Source: Niallia alba
GTDB taxonomy: Bacteria > Bacillota > Bacilli > Bacillales > Cytobacillaceae
Length of the DNA: 64,000 nucleotides
Direction: 5' to 3'
NCBI RefSeq assembly: GCF_012933555.1
Contig: NZ_JABBPK010000001.1
Location: 1,032,001 to 1,096,000 of the forward strand
Below are positions 2,334 through 20,214 of the stretch, piece by piece. Under the pieces are notes generated by a model that did no database searches, was not told the DNA's origin, and saw only the letters and a list, made by a program, of their open reading frames with translations. The position numbers and the translations under genes were made by a program. Numbering within the stretch: position 1 is the first letter of the stretch; each line of letters begins with the position of its first letter.

Positions 2334-4412
2334 ATGAGAAAATTTGTGAAAATTATCATCTATTATTTACTTGGCACTATTGCCATACTGGCTTTAAGTG
2401 TTTTTCCAAAATACTTTCGAATGAGGGATTTACCAGAGGGAGAGGGGTATTTCTCCACACTCCTCTCCTTTTTATCAAAGGAATTTTTTCAGAAGGAAGA
2501 ATGGGTTTATTCCTTAAATGGTGTAGATAAAAAGCCGATTTTGGATGTGCTCTGGCCAGCTTTTATTTATTCGATGGAAATTCTTTTTGGTGCCATTCTT
2601 CTCGGATGCTTTGTTGCTTTTGTTTTATCAATATTATCTTTTTTTCTACCGAAGTTTCTTTTACAGCCAATAAAGAGATTCCTAGATTTAATTGAGTCGG
2701 TTCCAGATATTATTATTGCAACACTTCTGCAAGCATTAGTAATCTTTATCTTTGCTCAAACGGGTATCGAGATTTTTGCGGTGGCTAGTTATTCAGAAAA
2801 GGCATATGCTGGTCCAATTATCACACTTGCCATTCTTCCTGCTATTTCGTTATTCAAAATTCTTATATTGATGATGGAAGAGGAGTATTTGAAGGTTTAT
2901 GTAACATTTGCAAGAAGTAAAGGAATTCGCAATTTTCCAATCCTATGGAAACATATTCTTCGTAATATTATCCCAGTATCCTTTCATCATATGAAAATTA
3001 TTATTTGGGGATTGTTATCTAGCCAATTTATAATCGAACGCCTGTTTAATGTTCATGGATTTACCTATTTTCTTGTAGAGAACTTTACACCAATGACAAT
3101 TGCTGTATCTTTGCTGCTTATATTTACGCCATTTTTTATTCTTTTCCAAGTAGTAGAGATATGGATACAGGAAGAGCAAGAAAAGGCCCGAGAAGTGAAA
3201 AAGGATTCGTGGAAACAGAAAATGAGTTTTTCAAACTTTTTGTTATCGTCTAAGGTATTTGGTATTAATCTAAGGGATGGGGTGCGAAGTTTTAGTTGGG
3301 ATAAGCTCTCCTTGATTCGCCCACTAACTTGGATGGGAAAAACGTTTGCTTTACATATGAAAAATTGGAAATTTGCTATAGGTAGTCTGTTCTTTATTGT
3401 CGTTATTGGTTATAGCATTATTTATTCGGTAACGACCGATAACCATGTTGATCAGATGCGGTTATTTTATGCAGAAGATGGAGTGACACTAATTTCTGCC
3501 ATGCCATTTGCCCCAACGGAACCTTTCTTCTTTGGATCCGATAGATTAGGTTACAGTCTGTTTGATCAAATTGTGATTGGTGCCAAGTATACGTTGTTTT
3601 TCGCGCTACTTATCGCGTGCTTTCGTGTAGTTGTTGGATTATTACTTGCAGTAATTTACTCTTTTTACTTGAAACAGCCAGCACAGCAATGGGTAGCAAA
3701 GATGGTAGATTCGATTCATTTTATGCCATTAAGCTTGATTGCTTATATTTTATTAAGTCCGATTCTTTTACCAGGTTTTGACGGATTCAGCTATTCCTTT
3801 TGGGAAAGAGTCTTTTTAGAAACGATGATTTTGACTCTGTTGGTGGTTCCATTGACTACTGTATTATTAGGGAAAGAAATCAATCGTGTGTCTGATTATG
3901 AATTTATTGCAAGTGCGAAAGTAATGGGCGGTGGGAAATTTCAAATTTTCACTCGACATATACTTCCGCATTTAGGTCCAAGGCTTACCATTTTATTTGG
4001 ACAACAATTTATTCAAGTGTTATTAATTTTTATGCATTTGGGTATTTTTGATTATTTCTTTGGAGGAACAAAATTATCGATGGATCCAATGTTTGCTGAT
4101 CCTCCACAATCCTCTACCTATGAATGGTCAGGGTTAATCGGACAGGTCGGCAGAGGAGCAATTGGCTCTGGACAATACTGGTACTTATATATTCTTGTGC
4201 CATTTATTTTCGCAATATTTGCCATGCAGCTAATTGTTCAAGGAGTGAAAGAGGTTCAACAAGTAAAGGTAGGAGTTATTTTTAAGCTGCCAAGCTTTCG
4301 AAAGAAAAAGCAAAGCATACAATCAAAAGAAGTAGCACCAATGATTACGAAAGAGAGTTTCACACAGATAGGGAGAGATGCAAATGGAAATCAGGCAATT
4401 ACACCACCATGA
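2334..4412 (+). CDS. fused two-domain ABC permease (DppB-DppC type)
   Basis: This 692-residue membrane protein carries two binding-protein-dependent permease domains in one chain, each with the cytoplasmic EAA-type loop that contacts the ATPase. The first loop reads ARSKGIRNFPILWKHILRN (about residues 195-215) and the second ASAKVMGGGKFQIFTRHILP (about 525-545). The N-terminal domain resembles DppB/OppB and the C-terminal one DppC/OppC, normally separate proteins of about 300 residues. It would form both halves of an oligopeptide- or nickel-type importer channel. No ATPase or binding-protein gene is adjacent, so its partners must be elsewhere. The substrate is unknown. The AAGGAAAGGGG ribosome site fixes the start. 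Confidence 0.8.
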   Translation: MRKFVKIIIYYLLGTIAILALSVFPKYFRMRDLPEGEGYFSTLLSFLSKEFFQKEEWVYSLNGVDKKPILDVLWPAFIYSMEILFGAILLGCFVAFVLSILSFFLPKFLLQPIKRFLDLIESVPDIIIATLLQALVIFIFAQTGIEIFAVASYSEKAYAGPIITLAILPAISLFKILILMMEEEYLKVYVTFARSKGIRNFPILWKHILRNIIPVSFHHMKIIIWGLLSSQFIIERLFNVHGFTYFLVENFTPMTIAVSLLLIFTPFFILFQVVEIWIQEEQEKAREVKKDSWKQKMSFSNFLLSSKVFGINLRDGVRSFSWDKLSLIRPLTWMGKTFALHMKNWKFAIGSLFFIVVIGYSIIYSVTTDNHVDQMRLFYAEDGVTLISAMPFAPTEPFFFGSDRLGYSLFDQIVIGAKYTLFFALLIACFRVVVGLLLAVIYSFYLKQPAQQWVAKMVDSIHFMPLSLIAYILLSPILLPGFDGFSYSFWERVFLETMILTLLVVPLTTVLLGKEINRVSDYEFIASAKVMGGGKFQIFTRHILPHLGPRLTILFGQQFIQVLLIFMHLGIFDYFFGGTKLSMDPMFADPPQSSTYEWSGLIGQVGRGAIGSGQYWYLYILVPFIFAIFAMQLIVQGVKEVQQVKVGVIFKLPSFRKKKQSIQSKEVAPMITKESFTQIGRDANGNQAITPP

Positions 4413-4887
4413 TGCAGAAGCATATTTTGCCCTCAGATTAGAGGCATTGCAAACAAATCCAGAAGCATTTGGTTCTAGCTATGAGGAAGAAAAAGATTAT
4501 CCGCTAAGTCAAATACAAAGCAGATTAACAGATCCTGCTTATGTATTTGGGGCATTTCTTGAAAATACTCTAATAGGTGTCGTTACCTTAGTGAGAGAAA
4601 CAAAGCAAAAGATGAGCCATCGTGCTAATATCTATGCTGTCTATGTGACACCTTTACATAGAGGAAAAGGTGTAGCGAAACAATTACTACAAGCGGCAAT
4701 CGAATACGCACATACATTACAAGGGATAGAACAATTATACCTCGCAGTTGTTTCTGATAATATCTCAGCTAAAAAGTTATATCGTTCATTTGGATTTGAA
4801 ACATATGGAATCGATCAAAAAGCGATAAAAATTAGTGGGAAATACTATGATGAGGAATTAATGGTTCGCTTTTTATCCCACTCTTAA
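4384..4887 (+). CDS. GNAT-family N-acetyltransferase
   Basis: This protein of about 167 residues has the GNAT fold. The acetyl-CoA loop is HRGKGVAKQLL and the C-terminal strand is SAKKLYRSFGFETYG. It would transfer an acetyl group from acetyl-CoA to an unknown amine. Its 5' end overlaps the end of the fused permease gene in another frame, so the two are probably translated together. A GGGAGAG at 4371-4377 abuts the ATG at 4378 but sits 6 bases before the ATG at 4384, so the second ATG is the better start. It ends shortly before a terminator. Confidence 0.85.
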   Translation: MEIRQLHHHDAEAYFALRLEALQTNPEAFGSSYEEEKDYPLSQIQSRLTDPAYVFGAFLENTLIGVVTLVRETKQKMSHRANIYAVYVTPLHRGKGVAKQLLQAAIEYAHTLQGIEQLYLAVVSDNISAKKLYRSFGFETYGIDQKAIKISGKYYDEELMVRFLSHS

Positions 4888-4950
4888 CGGGCAGAAAAAC
4901 CTCAATGATGGAAGGTTTCTTTATAACAACTAAGTTAAAGTAAATATTAG

Positions 4951-4996
4951 ACTGTGGTTACTTTGGATTAATCGAAGGATACCACAGTTTTTATTT
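4951..4996 (+). terminator. Rho-independent terminator
   Basis: The arms ACTGTGGT and ACCACAGT are followed by TTTTTATTTT. It closes the permease-acetyltransferase transcription unit. Confidence 0.75.
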
Positions 4997-5050
4997 TGGG
5001 AAGAAAAGTGAAAAATAGCAATAAAGTTATAATAAAAAATTGTTTAAATA

Positions 5051-5077
5051 TAAACAAAAGAGCAAAAAGTCCGATAT
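5051..5077 (+). promoter_or_regulatory. SigD (motility sigma factor) promoter
   Basis: The sequence reads TAAA, exactly 15 bases, then TCCGATAT. This matches the known Bacillus SigD consensus TAAA-N15-GCCGATAA at all but two positions. It lies about 290 bases upstream of the chemoreceptor gene, which is the kind of gene SigD serves. No second promoter is evident in the AT-rich leader between. Confidence 0.75.
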
Positions 5078-5363
5078 ATTATTTGTAAATAAAATTGAAT
5101 TATTCTGTAAATTACTTTAGTATTATACATACAAAGTAATAAAGTAACTTGTTTTTTAATAATCTAATTCTATTTTACTAGTTGTAAACAAATATAGATG
5201 AATGAAATAGAGGCAGATAAGCAAAGAATACTATTCTTAAAGGGAGGAGGAAATAAACGGAAAAATACTATTTCGGAATATTCTAAATCGGTTGTGGATG
5301 GATAGAAGGACAGAAATCTCTTTAATAGTGAGGGGCTTAAATCATCAAAGGGGAGAACTTGTG

Positions 5364-10501: not shown

Positions 10502-11776
10502 ATGGATGCACGGCTAAAAGAGCTAGTTGATTTAACCAAAAAACAATGGGGACTAACCGATTATTATTTAGGAAGACATCGTTTGTTTCGACGTCTTATG
10601 CTGGCTGGCGAGACGATCTATTTCTTAAATATGGAATGGTTCCCTAATAAATATGCCAATTGGATAGATGAAGAGGAAAATCCAGCTGGTACAGCTTCCA
10701 TTGATATAAATATACACACGAAAGAGTTCCACTCCGCTATTTTTGTCCAAGGATTGACGTATGCAAAAAACGGTATTGTTTTTCCTAATAAAGATGTGGA
10801 AGAGGTAAAGGAGTGGCTTGCTAATTTCACAGGGTTAAAGATAGAGAAAGATTTTATTTGCAAAAAAAGAGCAGAACGAGAGCTATATTTTCAAGAGCAG
10901 TGGAATGGAGTGCCCTTATCTCCCTCTGTTTCTATCGAAGTAGAGTTTAATGAAAAGGGAGAGTTAACGTTTTATTCTCAAAATATAAGCGTATTATCGA
11001 AAAGGAAAGACTTAGAGGAAGAGTATACGCTATCGTTATCATCACCCATAGAGGCAATAGCAAGAGAGCAGGTCGTTTTAGCAAAATTCCCTCAAGATGA
11101 TGGTACTATTATCGTCTATGGTGTGGAAGAAACATTTATAAGAAACGATCAAAAAGGCACAGTTCCATTTATACTAGATAAGGGTATTCCCAAAATCGTA
11201 AACAAAGAAATAGTGTGGCAGAATACAAAGAGAGATAATTTTGAAAGAAAGTATTTACAGTGGGATGATGAAGTAAGTGTCGAGGATGCCTATTCAAGGG
11301 TACCACATCCAGACTCTTTGCCCATAACAGATGAGGAAGTAGAGAAATGTATGCAAGGAATAATCGAATTTTTGCAAATGAAGTATCCACATGAATCAGG
11401 TAAATGGATGCTAAAATATTTAAATAGAGAAAACTCCTATTTGCATGCCAATCTTGAGAAAGCTGCTTCCAAAAGCCTTTTTGCAGAAAAAATTCTTATA
11501 TTCCTTGATAATGAAGGAAATGTAATAAACTACATGGACAAAAAGGACTTATGGGATAAAATCATGGACACAAAGGACGATGAACAAAAAGAGATAAAAG
11601 TGAGCAAAGAAGAGGCTTATAATAAACTGAAGCCATATTTTACTTTAACGCCTTACTATGTGTTTGATTCAGGCGATAACAAGTGGGTACTATGCGGAAA
11701 ATTTGACTGTGATTACTTTGTCGATGTGGAAAGTGGAGAAGTCAGCAGGCTAGAGGATTCTTTTTTGATTTATTAA
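10502..11776 (+). CDS. hypothetical protein, possibly YcdB/YcdC-repeat type
   Basis: This 424-residue protein has no signal peptide or membrane helix that I can see. It looks like two related halves: an N-terminal half beginning with a helix and a WFPNKYANWIDEE segment, and a C-terminal half with EAYNKLKPYFTLTPYYVF and DCDYFVDVESGEV. Alternating short beta strands and PSVSIEVEFNEKGELTFYS recall the YcdB/YcdC repeated domain of Bacillus, but I am not certain. A GAGGAATAG ribosome site precedes the ATG, and the gene follows nnr by 12 bases. No function is assigned. Confidence 0.75.
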   Translation: MDARLKELVDLTKKQWGLTDYYLGRHRLFRRLMLAGETIYFLNMEWFPNKYANWIDEEENPAGTASIDINIHTKEFHSAIFVQGLTYAKNGIVFPNKDVEEVKEWLANFTGLKIEKDFICKKRAERELYFQEQWNGVPLSPSVSIEVEFNEKGELTFYSQNISVLSKRKDLEEEYTLSLSSPIEAIAREQVVLAKFPQDDGTIIVYGVEETFIRNDQKGTVPFILDKGIPKIVNKEIVWQNTKRDNFERKYLQWDDEVSVEDAYSRVPHPDSLPITDEEVEKCMQGIIEFLQMKYPHESGKWMLKYLNRENSYLHANLEKAASKSLFAEKILIFLDNEGNVINYMDKKDLWDKIMDTKDDEQKEIKVSKEEAYNKLKPYFTLTPYYVFDSGDNKWVLCGKFDCDYFVDVESGEVSRLEDSFLIY

Positions 11777-11840: not shown

Positions 11841-13508
11841 ATGGACTCTTCCCTAGAATTACAAATGCTCATTCAATTATTTGAACGAGCTGCCCTTTTA
11901 CTGATAACCTTATTTTTTATGACGAGAGTACCGAAATTTAAAGAAACCTTGCAAAAGGATCATCACTCTCCAACAGAACTAACATTAATCACGCTGATAT
12001 TTTGTGCTTTCGCCTTATTTGGTACCTATTCTGGAATCCAAGTAGAAGGTTCTATTGTGAATATCCGCACAATTGCGATTATGTCAGGCGGTATCCTCTT
12101 TGGTCCATGGGTTGGAATTGTGACTGGAATTGTATCAGGCGTGCATCGTTACTTAATTGATATTGGCGGCGTAACCTCTGTCCCCTGTTTAATTACAAGT
12201 ATTCTTGCAGGGATAGTATCAGGTTATATACATTATCGAGTGAAAAAGAATAGTCGTTGGATATATGGGATAGTCGCTGGAATGCTATGTGAAATGTTAA
12301 CTATGATTCTGATTTTACTTATGGCAGACCCCTTCGATTTAGGGGTAGACATTGTGTCAAAAATTGCCTTACCAATGATTTTAGGACAAGGCAGTATCGG
12401 GTTAATTGTCTTAATGATTGCTAGTGTAGAAGGAGAAAAGGAAAGAATCGCAGCACAGCAGGCACAGCTAGCCCTTAATATTGCTAATAAAACATTACCT
12501 TATTTTCGTTCTATTAATGGCAATTCATTGCGTACGATTTGTACAATTATAAAAGAAGATATCCGGGCGGATGCAGTAGCTATTACCGATACAAAGGATG
12601 TTCTTGCCTATGTTGGATTTGGAGAAGAAAAATACAAGATTGGCCAAGAGATTATCAGTGACTTAACGAAGGAAACGGTCCGAAGTGGTAAGATTACAAT
12701 TCGAAATAATATCGCTGATCACCATACCCCACAGATTCATTGTTTATTGGTCATTCCGCTGGAAGAAAGAGGCGTTGTAACCGGTACTTTGAAAATCTAT
12801 TACCGAAAAGCCTATACGATTACCTATACATTGCAGACAATGGCAATTGGGTTGGCACAAATTATCTCGACGCTTATGGAAGTATCGAGAGTGGAGCAAA
12901 TGAAAGAAGAAGCAAATAAGGCGGAACTAAAAGCATTACAAACAAAAATCAATCCTCATTTCTTATTTAATGCGCTAAACGCGATTGCATCGACTACTCG
13001 TCGTGATCCAGAAAAAGCTCGAGAATTGATTATTAATTTGTCTGGTTATATGCGTTACAACTTAGAGGTAGGGGAAGAGCTTATTGATATCCAGCTAGCC
13101 CTAAAACAAGTAAAAGACTATATTCAAATTGAAAAGGCTCGATTTGGAAATCGACTACAAGTGAACTATGAGATAGATGATACACATATCAAGCTCCCAA
13201 GTCTTCTTATTCAACCTTTAGTAGAAAATGCGGTTGTGCACGGAATTTTAAAACGAAAAGGTCCGGGAGTAGTGACAATATCAGTCAAAGATTTAGGAGA
13301 AACGGTAAGAGTAAGTGTACGAGACACTGGTGAAGGAATTGCTCAGGATGTGATTAATCGTTTAGCAAAAGATGAAGTATCATCAAAACAAATCGGTTTA
13401 ACGAATGTCCATCAACGAGTAAAATTAACATATGGAACAGGCTTAGTCATTCGCAGATTAGAGCCAGGGACGGAAGTTTATTTTGATATAACGAAGGAGA
13501 TAGCATGA
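11841..13508 (+). CDS. lytS: LytS-type sensor histidine kinase
   Basis: This 555-residue membrane kinase has the LytS/YpdA/BtsS layout: a 5TM LYT receptor domain (about 1-195), a GAF-like domain (about 215-345), a phospho-acceptor region with [15 protein letters not shown] (about 371-385), and an ATPase domain with LVENAVVHG and DTGEGI. In this family the known signal is extracellular pyruvate (B. subtilis LytST, E. coli YpdAB and BtsSR); older work links LytS to murein hydrolase control. The gene overlaps lytT by 4 bases (ATGA), and an OFA-type transporter follows, which favours the pyruvate role. An AAGGAGGAAG site precedes the ATG. Confidence 0.92.
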
Positions 13509-14233
13509 AAGCAATTATTGTAGAGGATGAAATACCAGCAAAAGAAGAATTAGAATACTTAATTCAAACACATAGCAATATGGAGATTGTTGCTTCTTTT
13601 GAGGACGGCCTAGATGTGCTTAAATTTTTACAAGCAGAAGAAGTCGATGCGATTTTCTTGGATATTAATATTCCTTCTTTAGACGGAATGCTTTTGGCAA
13701 GCAATATTAGTAAATTTGCGAAAAAGCCTTATATTATTTTTACGACAGCTTATAAAGAGCATGCAGCACAGGCGTTTGAATTAGAGGCATTCGATTATAT
13801 TCTGAAGCCGTATGAAGAAAAGCGTATTGCGGCAATGCTTACCAAACTAGAAACGGCTTTTCAAAAAGACACCGGTGGGGCAGAAGAAGTGACAATAGAG
13901 GTAAATCGCCGTATTAACTTGCGTAAAAATGAAAATATTATTGTAACAGATGTTAATGATATTTATTATGCAGAGGCAAGCGAAAAAGTAACATTAGTTT
14001 ATACCAAATCAGAAGAATATATGATGCCAATGAGTATCTCTGATTTTCACAGTAAGTTGCCACAGGATACTTTTTTCCGCTGTCATCGATCTTATACGGT
14101 GAACCTCTCGAAAATCCATGAAATTGTGCCATGGTTTAATCATACGTATCTAGTCAGATTAAAGGACATAAAGGCAGAAATCCCTGTTAGTAGAAGTAAA
14201 GCAAAAGAGTTTCGACAAATTATGCATCTGTAA
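13505..14233 (+). CDS. lytT: LytTR-family response regulator
   Basis: This 242-residue cytosolic response regulator is partnered with the overlapping lytS. The receiver domain shows the acidic pair in VEDE, the phosphorylated Asp53 in AIFLDINIP, and the lysine in ILKPYEE. A LytTR DNA-binding domain (about 137-240) follows, with [15 protein letters not shown] as its signature. LytTR proteins bind direct repeats spaced by about two helical turns. Such a repeat starts 2 bases after this gene's stop and lies in front of the OFA transporter gene, its likely target. Confidence 0.93.
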
Positions 14234-14234
14234 T

Positions 14235-14265
14235 TACCATTCATTCCGAATAAAGGGCATTTCAT
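14235..14265 (+). promoter_or_regulatory. YpdB-like LytTR binding site (direct repeat)
   Basis: TACCATTCAT, an 11-base spacer, then GGCATTTCAT. From memory, E. coli YpdB binds two direct repeats of GGCATTTCAT with an 11-base spacer upstream of yhjX. The second half here is identical to that motif; the first matches at 6 of 10 positions with TTCAT intact. The 21-bp centre-to-centre distance puts both halves on one face of the helix. That LytT binds here is inference. Confidence 0.6.
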
Positions 14266-14297
14266 TCTGATACCGGTTTCAAAAGTCTTTCAAGCGG

Positions 14298-14303
14298 TAT
14301 AAT
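14298..14303 (+). promoter_or_regulatory. -10 box of the OFA transporter promoter
   Basis: A perfect TATAAT stands 32 bases downstream of the direct repeat. The -35 position holds no good TTGACA match, as expected for an activator-dependent promoter. The bound activator would sit just upstream of the -35 region. Confidence 0.55.
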
Positions 14304-14383
14304 TTAACTATAAATAGAAAGCATAAGCAACCTTTTATAGTAGAAAATACAGTTTATAAACCGTGTAGAAAGAGGAGATCGGA

Positions 14384-15616
14384 ATGAAAGAACGAAACGG
14401 AAATCGCCTTCTTATCGTTATTGGTACAATTATTGTTCAAATGGGGCTAGGGACAATTTATACGTGGAGCTTATTCAATCAGCCCCTCGTTGATAAATTT
14501 GGATGGGATTTGAGCGCAACCGCAATCACTTTTTCCATTACCAGCTTTGCCCTAGCATTCGCAACCCTTTTTGCCGGAAAAATTCAAGATAAATTGGGTC
14601 TGCGTCGCTTAATTGCCTTTGCTGGGATTATGCTTGGCGGGGGATTAATGTTAACTTCTCAAGTATCATCTTTATCGATGCTTTATCTTATAGCAGGCGT
14701 ATGTGTTGGTTTTGCAGACGGGACTGCTTATATTACTTCTTTATCAAATTTAATTAAATGGTTCCCTGAGAAGAAAGGTCTAATATCAGGTATTTCTGTA
14801 GGAGCGTATGGAACCGGTAGCTTAGTGTTTAAATATATAAATACAAGTTTAATCGCATCTTATGGTGTTTCAACAGCCTTCTTAATTTGGGGAATTATCG
14901 CTTTAACGATGGTTGTCGGCGGATCATTCCTTTTAAAAGAAGCACGGGAAGTAGAAACAACTACAACTTCTTTAGCGCCAGAGCAAAAGAATTATACAGT
15001 CAAAGAAATGCTAAAAACAAAGCAAGCATATTTACTCTTTGTGATTTTCTTTACTGCATGTATGAGTGGATTATATTTAATCGGAATTGTAAAAGATATT
15101 GGTGTTAGCTTAGCAGATTTAGATGTAGCGACAGCTGCCAATGCCGTTGCTTTAGTTGCTATATTCAATACAATCGGACGTATTATACTTGGAGCGTTAT
15201 CTGATAAAGTAGGTCGAATAAAAGTAGTTTCTGGAACATTAGTCGTAACAGCTGTAGCAGTAACTGTTTTAAATGTAGTTCCATTAAGCTTCCCATTATT
15301 CTTTGCTTGTGTAGCAGCAATCGCGTTCTGTTTCGGAGGCGTAATTACCGTATACCCTGCCATCATTGCTGATTTCTTTGGCTTAAAAAATCAAAGCAAA
15401 AACTATGGAATAATCTATCAAGGCTTTGGGTTTGGAGCATTAGCCGGCTCTATGATCGCAGCAGTACTCGGAGGATTTCATGCAACCTTTACAGTAATAT
15501 CTGTTTTATGTGTTATTTCTTTCGTAATTACTTTAATTATAAAGCCGCCATTTATGGAACCAGAACCAAAAGAGAAAAAGCAGCCACAACCTAAATTGGT
15601 AAATCGTCTTGGATAA
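14384..15616 (+). CDS. OFA-family MFS transporter (YhjX-like)
   Basis: This 410-residue, twelve-helix major facilitator protein belongs to the oxalate/formate antiporter group. It starts with IVQMGLGTIYTWSLFNQPL, a helix-1 signature shared with OxlT and E. coli YhjX. Motif A appears as GKIQDKLGLRR and again as GALSDKVGRIK, and ADGTAYITSL lies in helix 4. E. coli yhjX is the main target of YpdAB and is linked to pyruvate. Here the gene follows lytST with a YpdB-like repeat between, so import or exchange of pyruvate or a related carboxylate is the best guess. A GAGGAGATC site precedes the ATG; a terminator follows. Confidence 0.87.
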   Translation: MKERNGNRLLIVIGTIIVQMGLGTIYTWSLFNQPLVDKFGWDLSATAITFSITSFALAFATLFAGKIQDKLGLRRLIAFAGIMLGGGLMLTSQVSSLSMLYLIAGVCVGFADGTAYITSLSNLIKWFPEKKGLISGISVGAYGTGSLVFKYINTSLIASYGVSTAFLIWGIIALTMVVGGSFLLKEAREVETTTTSLAPEQKNYTVKEMLKTKQAYLLFVIFFTACMSGLYLIGIVKDIGVSLADLDVATAANAVALVAIFNTIGRIILGALSDKVGRIKVVSGTLVVTAVAVTVLNVVPLSFPLFFACVAAIAFCFGGVITVYPAIIADFFGLKNQSKNYGIIYQGFGFGALAGSMIAAVLGGFHATFTVISVLCVISFVITLIIKPPFMEPEPKEKKQPQPKLVNRLG

Positions 15617-15629
15617 GTGAAAATGAAAG

Positions 15630-15679
15630 AGCCCGCAAATGTTAAAACTAATTTTACATTTGCGGAGCTTTTTTTTTTT
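15630..15679 (+). terminator. Rho-independent terminator
   Basis: AGCCCGCAAATGT and ACATTTGCGGAGCT form the stem, followed by a run of T. It ends the transporter unit. The stretch from 15680 to 15965 is AT-rich and holds only upstream sequence of xpaC. Confidence 0.9.
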
Positions 15680-18285: not shown

Positions 18286-20214
18286 ATTAAAACGATTGGC
18301 GACCAAAGAAGATAATCTAGTTTTTATTCCTTCCCCTGTTTCTTCAGAAGAAATATCGGAAAGAGCTAAAGATTATAATGTTTTGACTCCAAAGCAGTTC
18401 GGAACAAAACACAAAGATTTGTTGTTTATGCCGATTGATTTCAATGGAAAAACCCATCAAATCCAATATAACTATTGCTCCAACCCTTATTGTAAATAGC
18501 ACGGACTTCCACAAGAAAAATTCCCAACTAAAGGGAAACCGAGCCGATACAAATTATCGGGTTCTGGTACGGATAAAACCATTCATTGCAATCCCGACCC
18601 CATTAATTCAAACAAGTTAGCCACATTGGGGTGCCGTACAGTTACTCTATCCAATTGGTCAATTTCTCAAGAAATCGAACGGTTAATCCAAATCAACAGT
18701 GTTCAAGATTTGGAGCCTGATTATCAGTTTCATAAGGAAGGATGCAATTCCGAATGCTCTACCCCATTCAATGAACCGAAAAGATTTTATAAACAAGGGA
18801 AAAGCACAGGTAAATCGCAACGATGGCAGTGCAAATCGTGCAAGAAGTTCACCAATGTCTTGCCGAGCGGCAGAAAGTCCATCACTTATCACCAACAAAG
18901 AAGTGATGTTCTGCCACTGTTTACGAAACTGTTATTAAGCCGTGTTCCAATTACAAGAGCTTGTGAAATCTTGGAGATTGGGCGTGGGACATATTATAAC
19001 AAATTAGAATTTGTTTATCGGAGATGTTTGGAGTTTTTGGAACGACACGAGACCAAACCACTTCAAGCGATGCACTTTAAAGAAATGTGGTTAAACACTG
19101 ATAAGATGACCTATTTCCTTAACAATGTTCGCAAAAAAGGAATGGGCGGCAGCGAATATGATGATGTGGAGGAAAGCCAGTTTCCAACCAGTGTCGTGGT
19201 TACTGCCGATGTCTTTTCAAGATATGTGTTCCGCAGTGATGTGGCATATGATTGGGATATTTCGTTGGGGGATATTGCTCTTGATACCGTTCTTATGAAA
19301 GAGGACCATTTAAATGAATTTGCCAAGAAACACGCTCGTACTCCAAAGTATTCCCATTACCCAATGTCGCCATCAAAAAATGATACACAAACAGAAGTTG
19401 AGTATCGGAAGGATTTAGAGAAGATTGAACGCAGGGCGAGATATATGGATGGATTGCACGTCAATTCGACTTATACAACGATTGCTCATTTCTGGCTTAT
19501 CAAACAACTTATAAAGGCTTCTGAATGGCGTTTCGTGACCGATGAAGACAATTCTTTGATGACTTCCCTTTTTGAGTATTCGCCAATGAATTCCGCTTGT
19601 CGGATGCCCATCACTTTCTCTGCCAAACGGATAAAACGAAATCGAGAAAACAAGCCCGTGAGGAGTTTGTTCAAGCGAGGGTGGATTTGGTTAATTGGGG
19701 AATAAATTCTGGGTATGATACAAAGTCTCTGAGGAAATTAGCGTTCCTGAAACTAGAGGAACTACTCCACACCCATCAATTCCATAAAGAAATTAACACG
19801 GGGGTTTCCAGCCATTTTGAATATGCGGACAATCCAATTGAGCATCCTTTAGCGACTATTGACAGAGGATTTAGATGGGTAGATTGCACAACCAATCTGT
19901 CATCAATTGAACCAAAAGATATTGCTAATCTTATTCTGGAAGTTAATGATAATGCGACCAACACCTTTATCCAACACATTCGAAGGAGATTATCCATCTT
20001 AGAAAGACCATTGACCACTGCCCGTGGCGATGGCAAAAGTTATATCTATTCCAATTTCAATCCTAAGTATGCTCAAATGGCTCTTACCATCCTTCGAACA
20101 TATTACAATTTTTGCTTTGCTTATAAAACAAAGGATAGAATTGGCACTCCTGCACAAAGGTTAGGAATTGCAGAAAAAGAATTTAATATTAAGGATATAA
20201 TCTATATGCAGTAG
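18278..20214 (+). pseudogene. transposase, interrupted by a stop codon and a frameshift
   Basis: Three pieces of one transposase-like protein of about 640 residues lie in sequence. The first runs 18278-18499 and ends at a TAG inside a zinc-binding segment (CSNPYCK-stop-HGLPQEKF); the frame stays open afterwards to 19705. A second zinc motif RWQCKSCKKF and a catalytic-type segment TADVFSRYVFRSDVAYDWD follow. Near 19590-19700 the reading must change frame to continue into VQARVDLVNWG and the C-terminal TYYNFCFAYKTKDRIGTPAQRLGIAEKE, which resembles the ends of DDE transposases. No classic slippery heptamer is visible, so I read this as decay and not programmed recoding. Confidence 0.7.

Follow-up and report, generated by a model that had tools for sequence, protein, structure and literature searches.

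In Escherichia coli the sensor kinase YpdA and the response regulator YpdB (PyrS/PyrR in current annotation) are reported to respond to external pyruvate above ~600 μM (PMC5552118), and the known YpdB target yhjX encodes an OFA-type transporter. A parallel arrangement is described in Bacillus subtilis, where LytT requires both of two 13-nt boxes, with 8 nt between them and a 21-bp period, before the pyruvate-induced pftAB, where CcpA binds at the −35 position, and where the resemblance between this Gram-positive site of LytT and that of YpdB is already in print (PMC5626966). Here we analyze a window of 64,000 nucleotides from the 5.24-Mb genome of Niallia alba (contig NZ_JABBPK010000001.1, positions 1,032,001 to 1,096,000), in which a gene pair labeled lytS and lytT is followed, after an intergenic gap of 150 bases, by a gene for a major facilitator superfamily (MFS) transporter; coordinates are positions of the window (Table 1). 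We consider it likely, with a probability of about 0.8, that the locus represents a Bacillaceae-type version of the YpdA/YpdB-YhjX pyruvate system, in which the operator and the genes for sensor, regulator and transporter adjoin each other. A first-pass annotation, made from the letters alone, had proposed that the E. coli logic of sensor, site and transporter recurs here in a Gram-positive bacterium, in a module that probably responds to pyruvate rather than governing murein hydrolases, and sequence comparison supports this in a more literal form than was proposed, as the pair appears to be YpdA/YpdB itself. In the titles and abstract openings of the open-licence literature we found no report from Bacillota of a YpdAB-type system accompanied by an OFA-type gene, and within that literature the locus would be a previously unreported Gram-positive system of the YpdAB-YhjX type with an added catabolite-responsive element (cre).

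Kinase, regulator and transporter

The regulator is 67% identical to YpdB of E. coli K-12 over 245 amino acids (aa) and 29% identical to BtsR, while the kinase shares 62% of its residues with YpdA over 549 aa and 30% with BtsS. The genome's own second pair, located beside a CstA-type gene, is no closer than 38% (regulator) and 31% (kinase). By domain, the identity to YpdB is 69% in the receiver and 68% in the DNA-binding domain, where the paralogue reaches 40% and 34%, and the phospho-acceptor Asp53 is present in all 126 aligned rows. A tree of kinase and regulator separates 41 YpdAB-type rows from two outgroup rows with support of 100/99, and the regulator scores under the cut-offs of the equivalog models for LytR (NF010684, 161.6 bits against 375) and BtsR (NF008677, 145.8 against 246). 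Judged by its identities to YpdA/YpdB compared with those to BtsS/BtsR and to the genome's own paralogues, the pair is orthologous to YpdA/YpdB and not merely a YpdAB-like LytST. The first-pass annotation had correctly noted that the two genes overlap (by 4 bases), but the name LytST it gave them is loose and, for this pair, a misnomer.

A true LytST system would sense the state of the membrane or wall and control autolysis, leaving the transporter as a bystander with an unrelated promoter. The domain names (LytS 5TM, LytTR) match such a system, and the genome has an lrgAB-type pair, a target of some LytST systems. However, the LytR score is less than half of its cut-off, the only lrgB found lies at C1:2919189, more than 1.8 Mb away, the neighbor of the pair is an OFA-type gene, and the boxes described below track the transporter gene, with no second good site in the genome. 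We therefore regard this explanation as very improbable, and a LytST-LrgAB/PftAB system was rejected on the NF010684 score and the distance of lrgB. The LrgA/LrgB-like pair itself (L046, ~4286-5352, from C1:2918785 of genome G000 on) follows a LysR-type gene and is not beside a lytST pair.

BtsS is described as contacting pyruvate through Arg72, Arg99, Cys110 and Ser113 (PMC10653868). The pocket residues of the window kinase, R76, R103, C116 and T119, are the same as those of E. coli YpdA, and across the 126 rows of the YpdA clade the four positions hold Arg (122, with four gaps), Arg (126), Cys (126) and Thr (124, with two Ser). By analogy with these homologues, pyruvate would be the ligand of the kinase.

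The next gene encodes, as the first-pass annotation had said, an MFS transporter of the OFA family. It shares 47% of 398 aligned residues with YhjX, misses the cut-off of the OFA model TIGR00890 (319.4 bits against 374.85) and passes that of NF049980 (400.1 bits, cut-off 320), whose name, L-lactate MFS transporter, is the model's label for a predicted function. The genome's other OFA-type protein is only 29% identical to it. In all 86 transporter rows the OFA-group arginine (Arg266) is kept and a Phe stands at the position of OxlT Lys355; given the role of Lys355 in OxlT, a monocarboxylate is a likelier substrate than oxalate. SfMCT and OxlT, the OFA-type transporters with solved structures (6g9x and 8hpj), belong to the same subfamily by sequence, at ~135 bits each, and OxlT differs at Lys355. 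An oxalate carrier was rejected on the family-model scores and on this Phe. The protein is best described as a putative pyruvate-induced, and probably glucose-repressed, importer of monocarboxylates.

The same architecture might also sense and carry another ligand, lactate or a different small acid. The best family model is that of an L-lactate transporter, the MFS pyruvate transporter MonT of Staphylococcus aureus, compared here by its description, is reported to have also restored growth on lactate (PMC12632267), and BtsS Ser113 is replaced by Thr in the window kinase. The pocket is nevertheless that of E. coli YpdA, the kinase reported to respond to pyruvate (PMC5552118), and we think a different ligand unlikely.

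Operator, promoter and catabolite control

The first-pass annotation had pointed to a direct repeat immediately after lytT, and its letters and spacings proved exact: TACCATTCAT lies at 14235-14244, N11 at 14245-14255 and GGCATTTCAT at 14256-14265, with TATAAT 32 bases further on. That this −10 lacks a good −35 also holds, as the promoter scan returned no sigma-70-type pair there. As evidence, the repeat fails when taken by itself and stands when relatives are compared. The first 10-mer matches the second, an exact GGCATTTCAT repeat, in 6/10 letters, and a 21-spaced pair with at least 6/10 matches occurs in 1387/2000 single-base shuffles of the 150-base intergenic stretch, which is chance level. 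The best 10-mer pair in any register matches in 9/10 letters (reached by 10/2000 shuffles) and the best 16-mer pair in 10/16 (251/2000). The repeat alone was therefore rejected as proof. Among ten lineages of the window's family, which were picked from the 26 loci of a first search for a usually placed element and are thus a favorable choice, a 46-nt element has a mean identity of 77%, whereas the remaining intergenic sequence reaches 50% and the third codon positions in lytT 47%; the element scores higher in 45/45 pairs. This comparison across lineages indicates that the element is more than chance, although the window alone is insufficient to say so. The conserved unit is also wider than first drawn, consisting of two 13-nt boxes, ACCATTCATTCCG and GCATTTCATTCTG, with a 21-base period; the aligned intergenic stretches read CCATTCATTCCGAA, 21 bases on GCATTTCATTCTGA, and then TGAWAACGATTTCA. 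The 13-nt form recurs in both phyla, in Bacillota and in Enterobacterales.

We then considered the best 80 loci from a scan of named genomes, 44 from Bacillota (a set that overlaps with the 26 loci of the first search) and 36 from Enterobacterales. The best weight-matrix site was located within 600 bases upstream of an OFA-type gene, on its strand, in 44/44 Bacillota loci and in 5/5 linked Enterobacterales loci, the background in the same fetched stretches having a maximum of 12.0 bits and a median of 2.8. Conservation of the 21-bp repeat in relatives, a check that the first-pass annotation had suggested, is thus present, with three loci not above the background maximum (L076, 8.3 bits; L123, 11.1; L090, 12.0) and weak or half-lost sites in L021, L027 and L076.

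In at least 20 of the 26 first-search loci the element lies directly 3′ of the lytT stop codon, a position that would also suit another role, as the end of the lytT transcript or as a constitutive promoter, with the likeness to YpdB boxes a matter of convergence. The site, however, moves with the transporter gene. Where the OFA-type gene stands ahead of the kinase, as in Sporolactobacillus (L062, L078) and in genome G086, the site is ahead too; where DNA is inserted behind the regulator gene (L017, L026), it remains with the transporter gene; and in Enterobacteriaceae it precedes yhjX, though yhjX is unlinked to ypdAB. This tracking under reordering, insertion and unlinking shows that the site is tied to the transporter gene rather than to the 3′ end of the regulator gene. 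Moreover, the half-site A of yhjX shares this sequence and is required for YpdB binding (PMC4847170), and we find convergence scarcely credible. In L017 and L053, from a Bacillaceae genome, several near-identical tandem units of ~60 bases are inserted between the regulator gene and the box pair. In L021 and L026, inspection by eye shows a stem-loop with a T run directly 3′ of the regulator gene, ahead of the transporter promoter, as expected if the transporter is transcribed separately.

The distance from the boxes to the promoter is nearly fixed. In 77 distinct upstream stretches, in which a script placed the top-scoring box pair and −10, a −10 with five or six of six matches stands at +41 from the start of box 2 in 26/30 Bacillaceae-like and 21/29 Paenibacillaceae-like promoters, and at +42 in 8/11 from Enterobacterales. 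The −35 position lies within a cre-like sequence that overlaps the edge of box 2 and that the first-pass annotation had missed. Taking TGNAANCGNWWNCA as what we presume to be the cre consensus, a 9/10 match at +11 from the start of box 2 is found in 26/30 Bacillaceae-like, 3/4 Sporolactobacillaceae-like, 1/29 Paenibacillaceae-like and 0/11 Enterobacterales promoters, compared with 33 of the 29029 positions elsewhere in the same stretches. The genome encodes its own CcpA (542.8 bits with the ccpA model, cut-off 442.35), and proteins above this cut-off occur in all eight Bacillota genomes tested and in neither of two from Enterobacterales. By analogy with its homologues, CcpA may repress the transporter promoter through this site.

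To prospect whole genomes we used R1, a sequence-only model trained on 17 sites from the family to which the window belongs, with which the best 150 first-look candidates were scored per genome. Its top match was the OFA/yhjX promoter in 44/56 genomes, 17 of them training genomes; 27/39 remain without the latter, and 22/34 if five close kin are also removed. In a set of 36 whole genomes this promoter came first in 30 and second in G120 and G125, and fell outside the leading matches in G085, G113, G126 (Yersinia) and G127 (Serratia). In 20 further Enterobacterales genomes the yhjX promoter was first in 14, at 105-141 bases before the gene, second in G932 and absent from the matches in five. Blind to proteobacterial sites, R1 therefore ranks the known YpdB target first in 17/25 Enterobacterales. 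In the window's own genome, the next match after the window promoter has E=0.41, that is, there is no second good site. The E. coli motif, scanned over this genome with up to three mismatches, found one unrelated place and missed the window site.

The boxes of the yhjX promoter have the same sequence and 21-bp period as those of the window, and a −10 at nearly equal distance. E. coli differs in that yhjX is unlinked and preceded by three boxes and no cre, whereas the window has contiguous genes, two boxes and a cre; the kinase and regulator are orthologous and the transporter homologous. The third E. coli repeat, TCATTCATTCC, lies 21 bases upstream of site A, the upstream box being given as CATTCATTCC. 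This repeat (L038 minus strand, ~12143-12090) is retained in most of the Enterobacteriaceae yhjX promoters compared. By spacing to the −10 the window boxes equate with sites A and B, while the closer match in sequence is the pair formed by the upstream box and A (25/34 letters). The fragments used in published surface plasmon resonance experiments carry the upstream box unmutated (PMC4847170 Table 1). After mutation of site B, a single YpdB-D53E binding event remained, with a tenfold lower on-rate, and mutation of site A abolished binding despite the intact upstream box and B (PMC4847170). YpdB-D53E thus binds a fragment whose intact repeats are a window-like pair, and the two mutants together argue against strong independent binding at this so far uncounted upstream box. 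For Serratia, the earlier work records that no YpdB motif had been found and that the E. coli reporter failed (PMC5552118); we find diverged boxes before its linked OFA-type gene.

Compared by the published description of LytT, the B. subtilis LytST-pftAB system has the same layout, with LytS/LytTR proteins, two boxes and CcpA at the −35 (PMC5626966), and differs in its target, PftAB, which is not an OFA-type transporter. The Bacillaceae OFA-type gene and pftAB would then share one control scheme, two boxes with a cre on the −35, for unrelated transporters. E. coli BtsS/BtsR-BtsT and the genome's own second LytST/CstA-type locus have the same domain design and pocket but a CstA-type target, that is, another transporter family, and only 29-38% identity. 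The boxes of the second locus lack the TTCATTC extension and score 6.5 with the window box model, against 37.6 for the window pair. The stretch before its CstA-type gene (L039, 3725-3887, G000:C1) has the layout of the window promoter with weaker boxes, holding GCATTTCAAAATC-N8-GCATTTTATCATG, the cre-like sequence TGAAAACGCTTTTT and TATAAT. These boxes are weak GCATTT-type repeats at 21 bp, and related repeats occur in several, not all, of the 24 relatives' stretches scored for that locus.

By analogy with these systems, external pyruvate would enter the membrane pocket of the YpdA-type kinase, which would phosphorylate Asp53 of the YpdB-type regulator. Two regulators would then occupy the two boxes on one face of the DNA and, in activating the promoter, recruit RNA polymerase to a good −10 without a good −35, and the transporter so made would import pyruvate and perhaps lactate too. 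When glucose is plentiful, CcpA would bind the cre, which covers the margin of box 2 together with the −35 position, and shut the promoter off. If so, the genes annotated as lytS/lytT in Niallia, Cytobacillus, Neobacillus, Sporolactobacillus and many Paenibacillus encode pyruvate systems, their OFA-type neighbor is a predicted pyruvate importer, and the cell-wall label of this regulator is probably misleading.

Several observations weigh against this reading. The transporter tree puts YhjX on a long branch away from the linked transporters, which makes the orthology of the transporter weaker than that of the regulator. The variant BtsS-S113T, altered at the fourth pocket position, is reported to be unresponsive, although YpdA itself carries Thr there (PMC10653868). 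The promoter was not the top R1 match in 12/56 genomes, including Yersinia, Serratia, Rahnella and Ewingella. Finally, CcpA is present in 3/3 Paenibacillus genomes tested, yet 28/29 Paenibacillaceae-like promoters have no 9/10 cre at this place; the cre is therefore a lineage feature and not automatic, and the cre-like sequence could instead reflect conservation of a −35 region or belong to the regulator footprint.

Distribution and history

The system is patchily distributed. With a threshold of E≤1e-60, the regulator turns up in 3/398 genomes sampled from its own phylum, counting the window's own and the 50%-identical clostridial G486, and in 13/398 sampled from the phylum to which a Yersinia genome belongs. 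This, together with 67% identity across phyla, suggests that the module was likely transferred horizontally. In the first search the OFA-type gene directly follows the regulator gene in 25/26 loci and precedes the kinase in G086; among the named loci it is within the fetched stretch in 44/44 from Bacillota and in 5/36 from Enterobacterales (Serratia four, Yersinia one).

Enterobacterales are nested within Paenibacillaceae in the regulator tree (Shimodaira-Hasegawa-like approximate likelihood ratio test 88-92), and so are Yersinia and Serratia in the transporter tree (support 84-93), while the base of the tree of kinase and regulator is not resolved. Across the trees, Enterobacterales form a single clade close to Paenibacillaceae. 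A separate Bacillota clade was not rejected by the approximately unbiased test (p 0.135; 0.096 minus one long row), and a transfer from Bacillota to Enterobacterales is accordingly favored but not significant. Tentatively, the low-affinity pyruvate switch of E. coli may be an immigrant, in that a compact Bacillota module of kinase, regulator, operator and transporter may have entered Enterobacterales, where Yersinia and Serratia would have kept the original linked transporter and Enterobacteriaceae re-attached the operator sequence to the diverged YhjX, with a third in-register box that is present, unmutated, in the published binding fragments. Such a history would make a neat example of a regulatory module traveling together with its DNA site, with operator sequence and −10 distance kept across two phyla despite different RNA polymerase partners and catabolite control. 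The clostridial genome G486 (L176) has a YpdA/YpdB-like pair of 46-48% identity (48-50% for the regulator) beside a CstA-type gene, and the 8.5-kb stretch retrieved there holds no OFA-type gene; this may be an alternative partnership or an older one.

Layout and neighboring features

Table 1. Features of the locus, in window positions.
Feature	Position	Strand	Remarks
YpdA-type sensor histidine kinase ("lytS")	11841..13508	+	5TM-5TMR_LYT, His_kinase and HATPase_c domains; 62% to E. coli YpdA
YpdB-type LytTR response regulator ("lytT")	13505..14233	+	Response_reg and LytTR domains; 67% to E. coli YpdB
Putative regulator box 1, ACCATTCATTCCG	14236..14248	+	in relatives kept 21 bp ahead of box 2
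Putative regulator box 2, GCATTTCATTCTG	14257..14269	+	kept in relatives and in Enterobacterales yhjX promoters
cre-like CcpA site, TGATACCGGTTTCA, on the −35 position	14268..14281	+	9/10 positions of the presumed consensus
−10 element TATAAT	14298..14303	+	41 nt from box 2 start
OFA-type MFS transporter, predicted for monocarboxylates, YhjX homologue	14384..15616	+	NF049980 400 bits; 47% to YhjX
Probable transcription terminator, 10-bp stem CCGCAAATGT/ACATTTGCGG and T run	15633..15679	+	by eye

The probable terminator has no entry in the terminator scan, whose loop limit is 8. Upstream of the kinase, positions 10502-11776 hold a reading frame of 424 aa for which neither Pfam nor NCBIfam gave a match at E≤0.001. 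Further downstream, at 18626-20214, two overlapping frames (359 and 205 aa) with a zinc-finger-like start look like a single frame-broken gene of a mobile element.

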